Below, piece after piece: positions 1 through 56,079 of a stretch of 64,000 bases of DNA. The notes under the pieces were generated by a model that saw only the letters and a list, made by a program, of their open reading frames with translations, searched no databases and was not told where the DNA came from. Position numbers and translations under genes: made by a program. The stretch lies in contig NZ_CP036268.1 of the NCBI RefSeq assembly GCF_007744515.1, positions 4,334,833-4,398,832 of the forward strand, written 5' to 3'. The DNA comes from Stratiformator vulcanicus (GTDB taxonomy: Bacteria; Planctomycetota; Planctomycetia; Planctomycetales; Planctomycetaceae). Every line of letters begins with the position of its first letter. Position 1 is the first letter of the stretch.

Positions 1-827
1 TTGGGCTCAAATTCGCCAGAGCGTGAAAGGCGTTTGCGTTCGTCTTCGGGCTGATGAATTGCCCGCGCGCCATCGCGGTTCCAGGGGCAGACCTCTTGGC
101 AAATGTCGCAGCCGAACATCCAATCGCCGATGCCGTCGCGCAGCTCAATTGGAATTTCGGCTTTCAACTCGATCGTGAGGTAGGAAATGCATTTGCGGGC
201 GTCGAGTTCATAGGGACCGACCAAGGCGTCCGTCGGACAGGCTTCTAAGCAACGGGTGCAGGTACCGCAATGGCCGGAAAGATGCGGCTGGTCGACGGGT
301 AATTCAATGTCGGTGAGCAGCGCCCCGAGAAAAAGATAGCTCCCCTTCCATTTATTAATGAGAACAGTGTTCTTACCAAACCAACCGAGGCCGGCCAGGC
401 GGGCGAAGTCGCGTTCCAACAGGGGCGCCGTATCAACGATCGGTCGGGTGTGGCAGCCGGGGACGGCGTCATGCAACACATTCGCAAGTTTCTTCAGCCG
501 CGACTTAATCACGTCGTGGTAGTCGGCTTCGCCCCAGGCGTACCGGGCCACCCTCCCCTGCCCCGGTGCGGTCGGCTGCGGTTCCTCGGTGCGATAGTTA
601 AGCGCGACCATGATCACGCTTTTCACGTCGGGCAGCACGTGTCGCGGGTGCTCATAGGCCTCCCGGCGATTCGGTAGATAGTGCATCTCGCCGGCATGCC
701 CGCGATGAAGCCATTCAAGAAACGACGGGTACCCTGGCGGCGTCACAGCCGGGGCGATCCCGCAGAGGTCAAACCCGAGGGCTGCGGCTTTGGTTTTCAT
801 CGTGTCAGAGAGGTCTGAGCGTGACAT
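1..827 (-). CDS. queG: Epoxyqueuosine reductase QueG (3' end cut by window edge)
   Basis: Iron-sulfur and cobalamin dependent enzyme that reduces epoxyqueuosine to queuosine in tRNA, the last step of queuosine synthesis, in the cytoplasm. About 275 codons are visible from an ATG at 827; the frame stays open to base 1, so the C-terminus is missing. The N-terminal half has the QueG order [10 protein letters not shown], then [10 protein letters not shown], then [11 protein letters not shown] with GLGWFGKN. It is followed by two 4Fe-4S ligand sets: [12 protein letters not shown], and further on [11 protein letters not shown]. No strong Shine-Dalgarno precedes the ATG; an in-frame ATG at 800 is a less likely alternative because it would trim the conserved start. 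It is separated from the neighbouring yaaA by a long inverted repeat. Confidence 0.93.
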
Positions 828-50098: not shown

Positions 50099-52669
50099 TC
50101 AGTCGTCTGTCGAATCGGAGGAGTCACCTTCAGGGGAGTCGGTACCGGCAGCCGCTCCAACCAACTCTTCCTTCGGCTCTTCTTCGGCCGTGCTACCGAC
50201 GAAGTCGAGGTGCTTGTCCTCGCCAACTTCTTTGACTTCGACGGTGATCAGGTTGTGGCCTTCAAACGCCCCGCGAAGCAATTCTTCACTGAGCGGGTCT
50301 TCGATATAGGTACCGATCGACCTGCGGAGCGGCCGGGCTCCGTATTCGACGTCGGCTCCCTTTTCGACGACATATTCCCGCGCGGCTTCGGTCAATTCGA
50401 GCTTGAGGTCACGCTCGGCGAGCCGATCGCGAACCTTGCCGAGTTCAATCTCGACGATGTCTTTCAGTTCTTCCTTAGTCAGTTTGCGGAAGACCACGAC
50501 CTCGTCGAGACGACCGAGGAACTCGGGGCGGAAGTGCCGTTCGAGTTCGCCCATCACGTCCTGCTTCATATCCTGATAAGACCGCTCTTTATCGCGATCG
50601 GCGACCGCGTGCAGCCCGAAGCCGCCCGAAGCGATCTGCTTCGCACCGGCATTCGTGGTCAGGATCATGATCGTGTTCTTAAAGTCGACCTTCCGACCGA
50701 AGCTGTCGGTCAGGTGGCCTTCTTCCATGATCTGAAGCAGCATATTAAACACGTCGGGGTGAGCCTTCTCGATTTCATCGAGCAGGACCACCGAATACGG
50801 ACGGCGACGAATCTTTTCCGTCAACTGACCGCCTTCTTCGTAACCGACATATCCCGGAGGCGCACCGATCAGTCGGCTGACGTTGTGCTTTTCCATGTAC
50901 TCGCTCATGTCGATTTGAATGAGCGAGTCCTGATCGCCGAACATAAATTCGGCGAGTGTCTTGGCGAGCAGCGTTTTGCCGACCCCGGTCGGTCCGGCGA
51001 ATAGGAAGACCCCGGTCGGACGTTTCGGGTCCTTAAGACCGGCCCGGCTACGGCGAACCGCTTTACAGACCTGCTTGATTGCCTCGTCCTGGCTGACGAC
51101 GCGTTTGTGAAGTTCCTGCTCCATCTCAAGCAGCCGCACGGCGTCTTCGCTCGAGAGGCGAGTCAGTGGAATGCCGGTCATTTTGGCAACGACTTCGGCG
51201 ATCACCTCTTCGTCGACCACGCCGTCAACTTCGTCCGCCTTCTCGCGCCATTCCTTGGTCATCTGCTCCTTCTTCTTGCGAACCTTATCGGCCTGATCAC
51301 GTAGCGACGCGGCCTTTTCGAAGTCCTGATTGGCGACCGCTTCCTCTTTGAGCTGATTGAACTTTTCGATCTCGTCTTCGAGCTCCTTCAGATCGGGCGG
51401 GCGGACCATGCTGCGGAGTCGGATCCGGGCGCCCGCTTCGTCAATCACGTCGATCGCCTTATCGGGCAGCGCACGATCGGTGATATAGCGGGTCGAAAAT
51501 TCGACGGCAGCTTTCAGGCCTTCGTCGGTAATTTTCACCTTGTGATGCTGCTCGTAGCGTTCACGCAGGCCCTTAAGGATTTCGACCGCCTGTTCGGCAG
51601 ACGGCGGCTCAACGTTGACCTTCTGGAAGCGACGTTCGAGGGCGCTGTCCTTCTCAATATATTTGCGATACTCGTCGAGCGTCGTCGCACCGATGCATTG
51701 CAACTCGCCGCGCGATAACGCGGGCTTGAGTACGTTGGACGCGTCGATGGCGCCTTCAGCACCGCCAGCTCCGACGAGAGTGTGAAGTTCGTCGATGAAC
51801 AAAATCGTATTCTTCGCGCGGCGGACTTCATTCATCACCGCTTTGATGCGCTCTTCAAACTGCCCGCGATACTTGGTGCCGGCGACCATCATGGCGAGGT
51901 CGAGCACCACGATGCGGCGGTCACGGAGCAGTTCTGGAACGTTGCCGTCGACGACCATCTGGGCAAACCCCTCGACGATCGCGGTCTTACCGACGCCCGC
52001 TTCGCCCAGCAGAACCGGGTTGTTCTTCTGTCGGCGGCAGAGAATCTGCGTGACGCGTTCGATCTCGTGTTCGCGACCGATGACCGGGTCGAGCTTGCCC
52101 TGCTTGGCGAGTTCGGTCAGATCGCGACCGAAGCTGTCCAGAGCCGGCGTTTTGCTTTTACCCGATCCTTTCGAAGACGAACTTCCGCCGCCACCGCCCC
52201 CGGCTCGTTCCCCGCCTTCGGTACCTTCGATGCCGTGGCCGAGTAGATTGAGAACTTCGTCGCGGACGTCTTCGAGTTTGAGACCCAGGTTCATCAAAAC
52301 CTGAGCGGCGACGCCTTCCTGCTCACGCAGCAGTCCCAGCAGCAAGTGCTCGGTGCCAACGTAGTTGTGGTTGAGGTTGCGAGCCTCTTCCATCGCGTAT
52401 TCGATGACCTTTTTGGCCCGCGGCGTTTGCGGGAGCTTGCCCATCGTGACCATATCGGGCCCCGACTGGACGATCTTCTCGACTTCGAGGCGAATCTTTC
52501 GCAGGTCGACATCGAGATTCTTCAGAACATTCGCCGCGACGCCGGAACCTTCTTTGACCAGACCGAGCAAGATGTGCTCGGTGCCGATATATTCGTGGTT
52601 AAAGCGTTGGGCCTCCTGATTGGCCAACTGCATTACCTTCCGGGCACGGTCGGTAAATCGTTCATACAT
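50099..52669 (-). CDS. clpC: AAA+ unfoldase ClpC
   Basis: An 856-residue Clp/Hsp100 protein that feeds substrates to ClpP. Two Clp-N repeats open the protein ([63 protein letters not shown]-like). Walker A of D1 is [16 protein letters not shown], and the adjacent block is [14 protein letters not shown]. The middle region has the UVR-type motif [23 protein letters not shown], typical of ClpC rather than ClpB. Walker A of D2 is [16 protein letters not shown], followed by the [19 protein letters not shown] loop. The acidic tail ends [15 protein letters not shown] lies about 10 bases before ATG 52669. It is divergent from the ClpN-ThiD2-ThiE gene. Confidence 0.97.
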
Positions 52670-53147
52670 AGGGGTTTCTCCTTGAATCGGCCGCTGTGAA
52701 CCGTCGCGGGGCGTTCGTGTTCGAACCGCTCCGGCGAGAGACTTCGCCGGGCCGGACGACTTCATGACTGCTTATTTGACAGGTGATCGCTTCCGAAGAC
52801 TGTGACGCAAACGGTATGCCCTTCCGGCAAACCCGCCTGCAGATGCCTGAAGTCGGCGTCCTGTTTATCTTAGACCGCTCCGGCGACGCCGCGGCAGAAT
52901 TTCCGCAGACGAGGGGCAGTTGGAGCGAAGCAATGTCGACAAGTGCAGCCGACTTGCGAGGATAGGGCCGAAAAACGATCGCCCCCCCAACGTGGGGACA
53001 CCGCGCGATCGGTGGCACCCGACACTCCGTTTTTCGTAGTACAATCATTCCATTAATCCCAATCCTCATGATGCTACTTCCGCATGGCCGGGCCGACAAC
53101 TGCGTAACCCCGGTTCCTCGGAATTGCGTTCGGCCCCGGAGACCGAA
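52670..53147. other. Divergent promoter region clpC / thiE fusion
   Basis: About 480 bp, no gene. A minus-strand open frame at 52662-53162 has no protein-like content. No clear CtsR or CIRCE box was found. Confidence 0.6.
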
Positions 53148-54734
53148 TTGAAGCGAATTCATTTTACCAGTGCGGCCCAGCGTATTTTCGATGCCGCATC
53201 GTCCTACACGATCCTCAGGCGGGGCTCCGTCGTGGAGCCGTCCGACCTGTTGGCCGCGCTTTTTTCCGACGAATCGGCCGGGGCGGCGCTTCTCGGCGAG
53301 ATCGGTTTTCCTCCACCATCAACGCAAACGGTCACGACGGTCGAAGCCAGGACCGCGGCCGACACGCTCCCGATCCCCGAGCCGTCGGAGACGACCGATC
53401 GCATCAGAGACCGCGCGATCGCTCTGGCCCGTCGATTCGGCGGGCGAGAGGTCAGCAGCGAACACCTCGCCGTCGCCCTGCTCGAAATCGAGTCTCCGAT
53501 TCGCGATACGGCGAACTCGGCAAGGCTCGACCCAGACACGGTCCGCGATCGGCTGGACGAATCGATCGCGATGGGAGAAGTCGTCGAGGTCGATTTTCAG
53601 TTGGACGTTGATGGCCCGCACTCGCCGGAAAGCCCGACCGACGATTCGATCTCCCTGCGCCGCGAATCTCGACGTACTGAGTCGGTTGATCTGTTCGATC
53701 CCGCCGTCGCGCGGATCATCGACGCGACGGCGAATCGCTGCCGTGAGGGACTCCGCGTGGTTGAGGACTTCGCAAGATTTGTCCGCGACGATCCGTCGGC
53801 CACCCAATCACTCAAGTCACTACGTCACGGTTTCGCCGAGGCAATGAACCTCATTCCGACCGAATGGTTGCTGTCATCGCGAAACACCGGCGGAGATGTC
53901 GGGACATCCATCACGACCGAGGCGGAACGATCACGGTCGTCGCCAGAGCATGTGGCGGCGGCAAGTTTAAAGCGGGTGCAGGAGTCGCTGCGCAGTCTGG
54001 AAGAATACGGCAAACTCATCGATCCCCGGTTTGCGGAGTCGATCGAGCGACTGCGCTATCGCGCGTATGAAACCGAGCAGCAATTGATCGTGCCGACCAC
54101 TCCGGGCGGGGAGCTGTCCGCGGCACACCTCATGCTCTTACTGCCCGCCATGTTGCCGGGTCGAGACCTTACTCAAGTTGCTATGCAGGCAATCGCGGGC
54201 GGGGTCGACGTGATTCAGTTGCGTGACAAAAATGCGAATGATCATGTGCTGCTTGAAGCGGGTCGGATCTTCCGCGAATTAACCCGGAACCACGGGATCC
54301 GATTGATTATGAATGATCGACCCGATGTTGCGGTCGCCATCGAAGCAGACGGCGTTCATCTCGGGCAGGACGACCTGCCGATCAAAACGGCTCGTAGAAT
54401 TATCGGACCGGACCGAATAGTCGGCACATCGACGCATTCGATCGAGCAAATTCAACAGGCTGTTCGCGACGGTGCCGACTACGTCGGCGTCGGGCCGACA
54501 TTCGCCTCGACGACGAAGCACTTTGCGGAGTTTACCGGTGTGGAGTTGCTCCGGGCAGCCGGAGAAGTCGCATCCATACCGATGTTCGCAATCGGCGGGA
54601 TCGATGCCGGCAACGTTTCTGAGGTTGCCGCTGCGGGCTTCGGACGCGTTGCCGTCAGCGGCGCGATCTTAAACGCCGATGACCCTCGGCAAGCGGCGAT
54701 GAACATCAGGGCGGCGCTTGACATGATCGAATAA
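53148..54734 (+). CDS. thiE: ClpN-like / ThiD2 / ThiE fusion, thiamine phosphate synthase
   Basis: A 528-residue protein with three parts. Residues 1-150 look like a Clp-N double repeat: IHFTSAAQRIFDAASSYTILRRGSVVEPSDLLAALFSDESAGAALL, then RDRAIALARRFGGREVSSEHLAVALLEIES. Residues 185-320 match the ThiD2-type domain: ARIIDATANRCREGLRVVEDFARFVRDD and LKRVQESLRSLEEYGKL. Residues 330-528 are ThiE, which joins HMP-PP and thiazole phosphate: VIQLRDKNANDHVLL, IMNDRPDVAVAIEADGVHLGQDDLP, GTSTHS, DYVGVGPTFASTTK and FAIGGIDAGN, all complete. The TTG start at 53148 has GGAG six bases upstream; TTG 53124 is the alternative and no ATG fits. The adjoining clpC suggests the Clp-N part came from that neighbour. 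Confidence 0.9.
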   Translation: MKRIHFTSAAQRIFDAASSYTILRRGSVVEPSDLLAALFSDESAGAALLGEIGFPPPSTQTVTTVEARTAADTLPIPEPSETTDRIRDRAIALARRFGGREVSSEHLAVALLEIESPIRDTANSARLDPDTVRDRLDESIAMGEVVEVDFQLDVDGPHSPESPTDDSISLRRESRRTESVDLFDPAVARIIDATANRCREGLRVVEDFARFVRDDPSATQSLKSLRHGFAEAMNLIPTEWLLSSRNTGGDVGTSITTEAERSRSSPEHVAAASLKRVQESLRSLEEYGKLIDPRFAESIERLRYRAYETEQQLIVPTTPGGELSAAHLMLLLPAMLPGRDLTQVAMQAIAGGVDVIQLRDKNANDHVLLEAGRIFRELTRNHGIRLIMNDRPDVAVAIEADGVHLGQDDLPIKTARRIIGPDRIVGTSTHSIEQIQQAVRDGADYVGVGPTFASTTKHFAEFTGVELLRAAGEVASIPMFAIGGIDAGNVSEVAAAGFGRVAVSGAILNADDPRQAAMNIRAALDMIE

Positions 54735-54807: not shown

Positions 54808-56079
54808 TCAAAATTTTGGGACTTCCATCACGCTCGGGACGGGGTCGCAAAGCCACGTGCGGCGAGTCGGTCTCTCCGGCGACACTTCACGCGGAAATGA
54901 AATGGATTCGGCAATCAGAACCTCTTGACCAGACCGAGAGTCTTTCGCCATCTTCGCGCCGAAGTTCTTGGCGAGCTTCGCAATCTCAGGATCGTTTCGG
55001 TCGTTAAAACTGCCGACCGTCACGAGAGAATAGTGCTTGTCGTGCCAGACGTAAGCCGGAATCTTATAGTCACTCCGCAAGGCCCGCGTCATCTGCTCCG
55101 CATCCTGTGCGATTAAGTCTTCCGTGCGTGACCACGGTTTCGTAATTGCCGTTTGTATGTCTCGCACGGAAGGCAAGAAAGTGGCATAGCCGTCATTGTC
55201 CGTCGTTCCCCCGATTTGTTGAATTTGGTCATCGGAAAACATACGGCGTCCGCTGATCCCGTTCTCTGTCGGGTCAAACGACTTGTCGCGATGGGCGTAG
55301 ATCGACTCGGCACGCGACGTCGCGATGACGAGCGTGTACTTGCCCTGATTCTTAAGCAAAGAAATGTCTTCGGCGACGTCGTAATTAAGTTGCTTCAGTA
55401 AGGTTTCATCCGAGTCATGCGCCAGCGTTTGGGCATTTTGCATCGGATTGACCGTCAGAAACGCACCGCCGAGCGGCCCCTTCTGACCGGGCGTCGGCTT
55501 ATAGAGTCCGCCGTTTTCGAGAATCATAATGTCGACCGATTTGAATCGCTGGCCGTTCGTCAAAAACTTCGGCTCAAACCCTTTGATCCACTCCAAGGTG
55601 CGGTGAGCAATTTCGCCACCGCCACGTGAACGGTCATCGGGTCGGCTCGATTTATAATTGCCGGCGAGAACACACACGCCACCTTCAAATGCTTTATAAA
55701 AAGCGGCGAAGCCCGGAGGGGGCGCGACGTCATCGGCCCGCTGATACTTGTTCTTCACTTCAAACACGTAGGCCGGCACGCCTTTGGTTCGCAATTCGAA
55801 AACCAATTCGTCCGCGGCCTGTCGTGGGGTCATCCCTTTGTTCGACTCCTGCCCGGATTGCCGATACGTGTCGACGATATCAGCCGTCTTTTCCGGCTTG
55901 CGGAAGGCCGCCACCATGACCATCCAAGGGCCGTGCTTGGGCGTCAGCTTGTAGTCATATCCGCGAACCGCGTGTATTTTTCCGGCTTGCGCGTCGGCAC
56001 AGACCGAGACGACCAACATCAATGCAAACAAAGTGACTGTACTGCGTCGAAAACCCACGGCTCGACTCTCCTCGCTCAC
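54808..56079 (-). CDS. Secreted protein of unknown function, possibly two SPOR-like units
   Basis: A 423-residue exported protein. Residues 1-33 form a signal peptide (STVTLFALMLVVSVCADAQAG). Residues 45-120 have a strand-helix pattern seen in SPOR-type domains: GPWMVMVAAFRKPEKTADIVDTYRQ, then AADELVFELRTKGVPAYVFEVKNKY. A second similar unit is near 325-385: AEQMTRALRSDYKIPAYVWHDKHYSLVTVGSF. The middle has VDIMILENGGLYKPT and LVIATSRAESIY. I do not recognise a named family; such proteins appear planctomycete-specific. The start is at ATG 56079. The upstream gap contains a palindromic repeat. Confidence 0.75.
   Translation of the reverse strand: MSEESRAVGFRRSTVTLFALMLVVSVCADAQAGKIHAVRGYDYKLTPKHGPWMVMVAAFRKPEKTADIVDTYRQSGQESNKGMTPRQAADELVFELRTKGVPAYVFEVKNKYQRADDVAPPPGFAAFYKAFEGGVCVLAGNYKSSRPDDRSRGGGEIAHRTLEWIKGFEPKFLTNGQRFKSVDIMILENGGLYKPTPGQKGPLGGAFLTVNPMQNAQTLAHDSDETLLKQLNYDVAEDISLLKNQGKYTLVIATSRAESIYAHRDKSFDPTENGISGRRMFSDDQIQQIGGTTDNDGYATFLPSVRDIQTAITKPWSRTEDLIAQDAEQMTRALRSDYKIPAYVWHDKHYSLVTVGSFNDRNDPEIAKLAKNFGAKMAKDSRSGQEVLIAESISFPREVSPERPTRRTWLCDPVPSVMEVPKF

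Follow-up and report, generated by a model that had tools for sequence, protein, structure and literature searches.

A double Clp-N domain fused to thiamine phosphate synthase in planctomycetes

Clp N-domains are receptors of proteolytic machines and are also found in a few proteins that lack AAA modules. The 64,000-nucleotide stretch of the Stratiformator vulcanicus genome analysed here (the window) holds a gene in which such a domain appears to precede a thiamine biosynthetic enzyme, head to head with clpC, raising the question of whether the domain is genuine, where it came from, and what it might do for the enzyme. The first-pass annotation had offered two answers, docking of the enzyme on the unfoldase or its adaptors, or a relic of gene duplication.

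Domain architecture of the fusion protein

The gene is an uninterrupted frame at 53148-54734 (+) that translates, from a TTG start codon, into 528 residues. A GGAG at 53138-53141 (+), six bases 5' of the TTG, would be its likely ribosome-binding site. Pfam places ThiD2 (PF17792; E 1.1e-39, 136 bits against a cut-off of 23.5) at residues 189-311 (53712-54080, +) and TMP-TENI (PF02581; E 1.4e-57), the ThiE or thiamine phosphate synthase domain that NCBIfam also recognises, at residues 333-507 (54144-54668, +). The protein passes the cut-offs of both the NCBIfam equivalog NF002727, 'thiamine phosphate synthase' (score 375 against 335), and TIGR00693 (195 against 145). In domains and their order it matches the ThiD2-ThiE synthase, from which it differs by about 185 extra N-terminal residues that carry the double Clp-N domain. 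No AAA family is among its Pfam matches, and it therefore lacks the AAA+ modules that characterize an Hsp100/ClpC unfoldase. Whole-genome searches found one ThiD2-ThiE fusion gene of this kind and three proteins with PF02861, namely ClpC, ClpB, and the fusion. The adjoining gene at 54808-56079 (-) has no Pfam match; a relative of it (37% identical) occupies the corresponding position next to the fusion gene of genome G020 (locus L057).

The double Clp-N domain spans residues about 5-142 (+). In the window protein Pfam detects only the second repeat (PF02861, residues 92-140; 32.6 bits, cut-off 20.7, E 8.9e-08), which by alignment and model extends over residues about 80-142 (53385-53573, +) and contains an S-S-E-H motif. 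The first repeat (residues about 5-58; 53160-53321, +) lies below Pfam detection here, and is recognised because an alignment of 80 fused N-termini, hhalign, and the structural model all support it. One fused relative, L032, escapes PF02861 at E 0.001. A fused-family profile built from the 80 aligned N-termini (L158 and L068 excluded) matched the ClpB N-domain over 133 columns with an hhalign probability of 99.3 and the ClpC N-domain over 136 columns with a probability of 98.1; compared directly, the window domain bears a weak likeness to the neighbouring ClpC (BLASTP E 0.009). The linker that follows (residues about 143-188; 53574-53711, +) is modelled with low confidence. About 22 residues before ThiD2, the motif EP[IL]x[VLT][DE], a pattern written after the sequences had been seen, occurs in 37 of 80 relatives against a shuffled mean of 11.1, and the window's own linker does not fit it.

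The N-domain came out with low confidence in a model of the full-length protein (27-75 per block), for which Foldseek gave ThiE structures; it was therefore modelled by itself, from an alignment of four fused sequences that included no unfoldase. The best of five models reached a mean pLDDT of 69.9 and a pTM of 0.69, the other four having a pLDDT of 42-59. Foldseek matched this model best in the PDB to 2k77, the N-domain of Bacillus subtilis ClpC (E 9.8e-06, TM 0.71 by query); of the 50 PDB matches listed, 44 were titled Clp/Hsp100 or heat-shock protease and the other six malarial secretion or proteostasis proteins. The PDB also contains 4y0b, a 'Double Clp-N motif protein' (ClpT1). The predicted fold is thus Clp-N-like rather than unrelated, and the initial description of the protein, in which ThiD2 and ThiE follow a double Clp-N domain and clpC is the divergent neighbour, is borne out. 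Collectively, these sequence comparisons and the predicted structure identify the window's N-terminus as a double Clp-N repeat.

Distribution, the clpC neighbourhood and the origin of the domain

A ThiD2-ThiE relative is present in 293 of the 297 genomes of the window's class. The architecture was examined in 96 of these, a non-random set made up of the window, 35 relatives, and 60 high scorers spread over genera among the matches listed, of which 80 are fused and 16 unfused. Left out before this count were G018, in which the gene is split over two contigs, L031, which shares a contig with L120, and the named loci L032-L041. The named loci include fused genes from an Isosphaeraceae, a Planctomicrobium, and an unclassified planctomycete, and unfused ones from Schlesneria, Neorhodopirellula, a Pirellulales, and a Pirellulaceae; these names suggest that the class is Planctomycetia. 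By family, the unfused genes fall in f5 (4/4 examined), f11 (three), f21 (one), f7 (2/4), and f1, the window's own family (6/43). On the gene tree there are 12 changes between the fused and unfused states, and starred branches force only three of them. Row L116 is labelled unfused by its length, yet has a partly masked N-domain and is fused. A phylum-wide search gave a match in 268 of 294 genomes, and among the matches listed there, none of 20 loci from other classes carries the fusion. Long open frames precede ThiD2 at 16 of these 20 loci, none of them Clp-N by profile, and short ones at the other four.

The divergent neighbour, clpC, lies at 50099-52669 (-); its open frame runs to 52765, and a conserved start, MYERF, is at 52669. 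Promoter and Rfam scans of the 478 bases between clpC and the fusion (52670-53147) gave neither a sigma-70-type site nor a match to Rfam, and a terminator scan gave nothing useful. A scan of the window for the CIRCE operator was also negative. A ClpC N-domain more than 80% identical lies near the gene in 28 genomes with the fusion and in 11 unfused ones, and is divergent in all 39. Where 3.5 kb or more of upstream sequence was available, no such domain lay there in 44 fused genomes and in 4 unfused ones. Fused genes have fewer clpC neighbours (Fisher p 0.02, a value that is descriptive only, as the genomes are related). Asked whether other planctomycetes keep the fusion beside clpC, the data give yes for 28 fused genomes and no for the 44 without clpC upstream. 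Since 11 unfused genomes have the same divergent clpC, adjacency does not explain the fusion; together with the 44 fused genomes without clpC upstream, they tell against the clpC neighbourhood as its cause. At the 20 loci from other classes, in stretches of 4.6-8.5 kb, clpC was not found. Given that the pair is divergent in fused and unfused genomes and was not found at these 20 loci, the clpC/thiE arrangement seems to be old within the class, and the fusion has outlived it.

In one genome (G003), a stand-alone protein of 278 residues with three Clp_N stretches is encoded between clpC and the fusion (L070 6913-7749, -), and its first part is 45% identical to the ClpC N-domain. In f5 and f6, clpC and thiE are separated by a further open frame, alike in appearance in the two families and on the same strand as clpC (L059 9812-10477, +; L083 6363-6926, -).

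In family f16, the fused domains are 59% (G163) and 53% (G239) identical to the ClpC N-domain and group with ClpC with support of 100/100 in a careful tree of 41 rows. This identity and grouping mark ClpC, as judged from sequence, as the donor of the fused domain in f16, and hence as a donor at least once. Descent from ClpC is accordingly established in f16 only; in the case of the domain encoded in the window, ClpC and ClpB are indistinguishable as donor. The ClpC profile outscores the ClpB profile in 10 of 80 fused domains, and naming a donor from these scores was rejected because the ClpC profile is very narrow. Tests of a single clade comprising all fused domains were split: a quick tree of 123 rows did not reject it (p-AU 0.716), the constrained tree even scoring 20 log units above the one from the free search, and the 41-row tree rejected it (p-AU 0.022). 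In light of this split, a second recruitment in f16 is likely, the alternative being one origin with f16 near the ClpC ancestor, or gene conversion. With clpC and thiE head to head in the same class, the simplest origin would be that the 5' end of clpC was copied, in inverted orientation, to a place before thiE.

Retention and possible role of the fused domain

For 12 pairs of relatives dS could be measured. The ratio of dN to dS in the N-domain was 0.09-0.37 in 11 of these and 0.74 in the twelfth, and two further pairs were saturated; for the catalytic part it was 0.05-0.21 in 13 pairs. The pairs share some members, and the window gene is in none of them. The N-domain therefore evolves faster than the catalytic part. 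These values indicate that the fused Clp-N domain has long been kept, mostly under purifying selection in the relatives. In one genome of family f6 (G029), Clp_N is joined directly to ThiE in a protein of 375 residues that lacks ThiD2 and is divergent from clpC (L083 7366-8493, +). Because the Clp-N domain was kept here despite the loss of ThiD2, it goes with ThiE rather than with ThiD2 or the clpC neighbourhood.

These data bear on two readings in which the domain would do nothing. That it is a neutral relic of gene fusion would fit with its fast evolution, its absence from 16 of the 96 genomes, and the one pair at 0.74, but we consider this very unlikely, as the Clp-N core is conserved across families, the ratio stays below 0.4 in the remaining 11 measurable pairs, and the domain is kept after loss of both the clpC neighbourhood and ThiD2. 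The relic proposed at the outset is hard to maintain for a fusion found in 80 of 96 genomes, which by these comparisons is neither a local oddity nor a relic. The chance that translation begins after residue 150, so that the Clp-N stretch is never made, seems slighter still. The TTG start codon and the internal TTG, GTG, and ATG codons would allow it, but GGAG stands before the TTG, an ATG precedes the domain in many relatives, and the constraint that relatives show on the codons of this N-terminal part makes so late a start improbable.

We subsequently compared residues at positions with assigned functions in ClpC, counting over 78 fused domains (L158 and L068 excluded), 39 ClpC N-domains, and 30 ClpB N-domains. 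According to the available portions of PMC12583610, T7 and E106 belong to the phospho-arginine (pArg) pocket pArg1 and E32 to pocket pArg2, while in the resting state K85 anchors the ClpC N-domain on AAA1 and R9 anchors it on the M domain. All five residues are kept in every ClpC N-domain (39/39). Position T7 carries T or S in all of the fused domains (78/78), E106 is E in 55/78 (mostly D in f3 and f8, 11/18), and E32 is E in only 6/78; R9 is R in 0/78 and K85 is K in 5/78, so that anchoring of the ClpC type is not expected. The ClpB domains keep T7 and E106 in 30/30 each and E32 in 1/30. The fused family also has a signature of its own, E-x-R-A, in the first repeat, with E at the S43 position in 72/78 and R at the V45 position in 54/78. 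In ClpC these positions are S and V in 39/39 and never the fused-type E and R (0/39), and in ClpB they are E in 3/30 and R in 0/30. The window copy reads E-S-A-G, with the signature E and without the signature R. That R9 and K85 are lost argues against the domain imitating ClpC's own N-domain in the ring, and with these anchors gone, docking on ClpC or its adaptors, as first proposed, would need another way. Docking of the fusion enzyme to the Clp system is nonetheless plausible.

We tentatively favour, at somewhat less than even chances, the explanation that the acquired Clp-N domain is a protein-binding regulatory module of the ThiD2-ThiE thiamine phosphate synthase. The domain would bind a usual partner of Clp N-domains, which may be an adaptor, a degron-like peptide, or the unfoldase itself, and this binding would tie the amount or activity of the enzyme to the state of the Clp system. 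Against such a module, 16 of the 96 genomes manage without a Clp-N domain. A more specific proposal, that ThiE uses a recruited copy of a Clp receptor to bring itself or its partners under Clp control, and that this copy was recruited at least twice from the neighbouring clpC (for the class-wide domain and in f16), is in our estimation unlikely.

The main rival to a protein-binding module is a structural, oligomerisation, or allosteric role in cis, in which Clp-N has been repurposed as a domain of ThiE with no link to Clp left, and we regard it as a serious possibility at about one chance in three. It is favoured by the family's own signature, whose E and R are absent in ClpC and rare or absent in ClpB, by the lost anchoring residues, by the persistence of the domain with ThiE after the loss of ThiD2, and by the over-representation of the post hoc linker motif near the enzyme. 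However, the f16 fused domain still resembles the ClpC N-domain, and in the systems studied, as far as the available portions of PMC12583610 describe them, Clp N-domains bind peptides and adaptors. Reading of phospho-arginine, or participation in the McsB-ClpC marking pathway, we consider improbable. A McsB-like ATP-guanido phosphotransferase (PF00217) is encoded in 284 of 297 class genomes as well as in the window's own genome, and T7 and E106 are largely kept, but these two residues are also kept in the ClpB control, which makes their pattern no evidence for pArg reading, and the pArg2 residue E32 is mostly lost. We know of no pArg reading by ClpB. Co-occurrence of McsB was rejected as a discriminator, since it is near-universal and does not separate fused from unfused genomes.

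Regulation of thiamine synthesis and relation to known Clp-N proteins

No TPP riboswitch was found in the window's own genome. In the class-wide search, which used stricter filters and may lose weak matches, none was found in any of 84 genomes of the window's family, f3 has a TPP riboswitch in 61 of 76 genomes and f8 in 5 of 7, and most f5 genomes are listed with neither fusion nor riboswitch. A simple replacement of the TPP riboswitch by the fusion was therefore rejected, as f3 is also fused and thus has both, and most f5 genomes have neither.

Among known proteins, the fusion shares the double Clp-N fold with ClpC (PF02861) and ClpB but lacks the AAA+ modules of both. It differs from ClpC in having lost R9, K85, and mostly E32 and in its signature; ClpB, whose profile match is slightly stronger than that of ClpC, shares the pattern of T7 and E106 without E32 and lacks the R at position 45. 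Mycobacterial ClpC2 and plant ClpT-type proteins resemble the fusion in carrying Clp-N outside an unfoldase, but are not joined to a metabolic enzyme; ClpC2 is described as a Clp-N protein without AAA+ modules in the accessible text of PMC10030653. A precedent for a thiamin enzyme in the sphere of ClpC is the plant THIC, which was enriched when CLPC1 served as a trap (PMC8889267, from the part available). The accessible part of a Mycobacterium smegmatis ClpC1 interactome (PMC10433963) names no thiamine synthase, only a permease family. In the literature open in PubMed Central, we found no fusion of Clp-N to a thiamine synthase. The fusion is real, conserved and, as far as these searches reach, undescribed: the enzyme is known, and its domain architecture is new.

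Such a class-wide fusion, which joins a Clp receptor domain to an enzyme of vitamin synthesis, would lend itself naturally to the study of receptor reuse. It predicts control of thiamine synthesis at the protein level, in a family whose genomes (84/84) showed no TPP riboswitch. If Clp control is indeed exerted through this domain, vitamin B1 synthesis would be Clp-regulated by gene fusion, and the conservation of the fusion across many planctomycetes hints at a link between vitamin supply and protein turnover.
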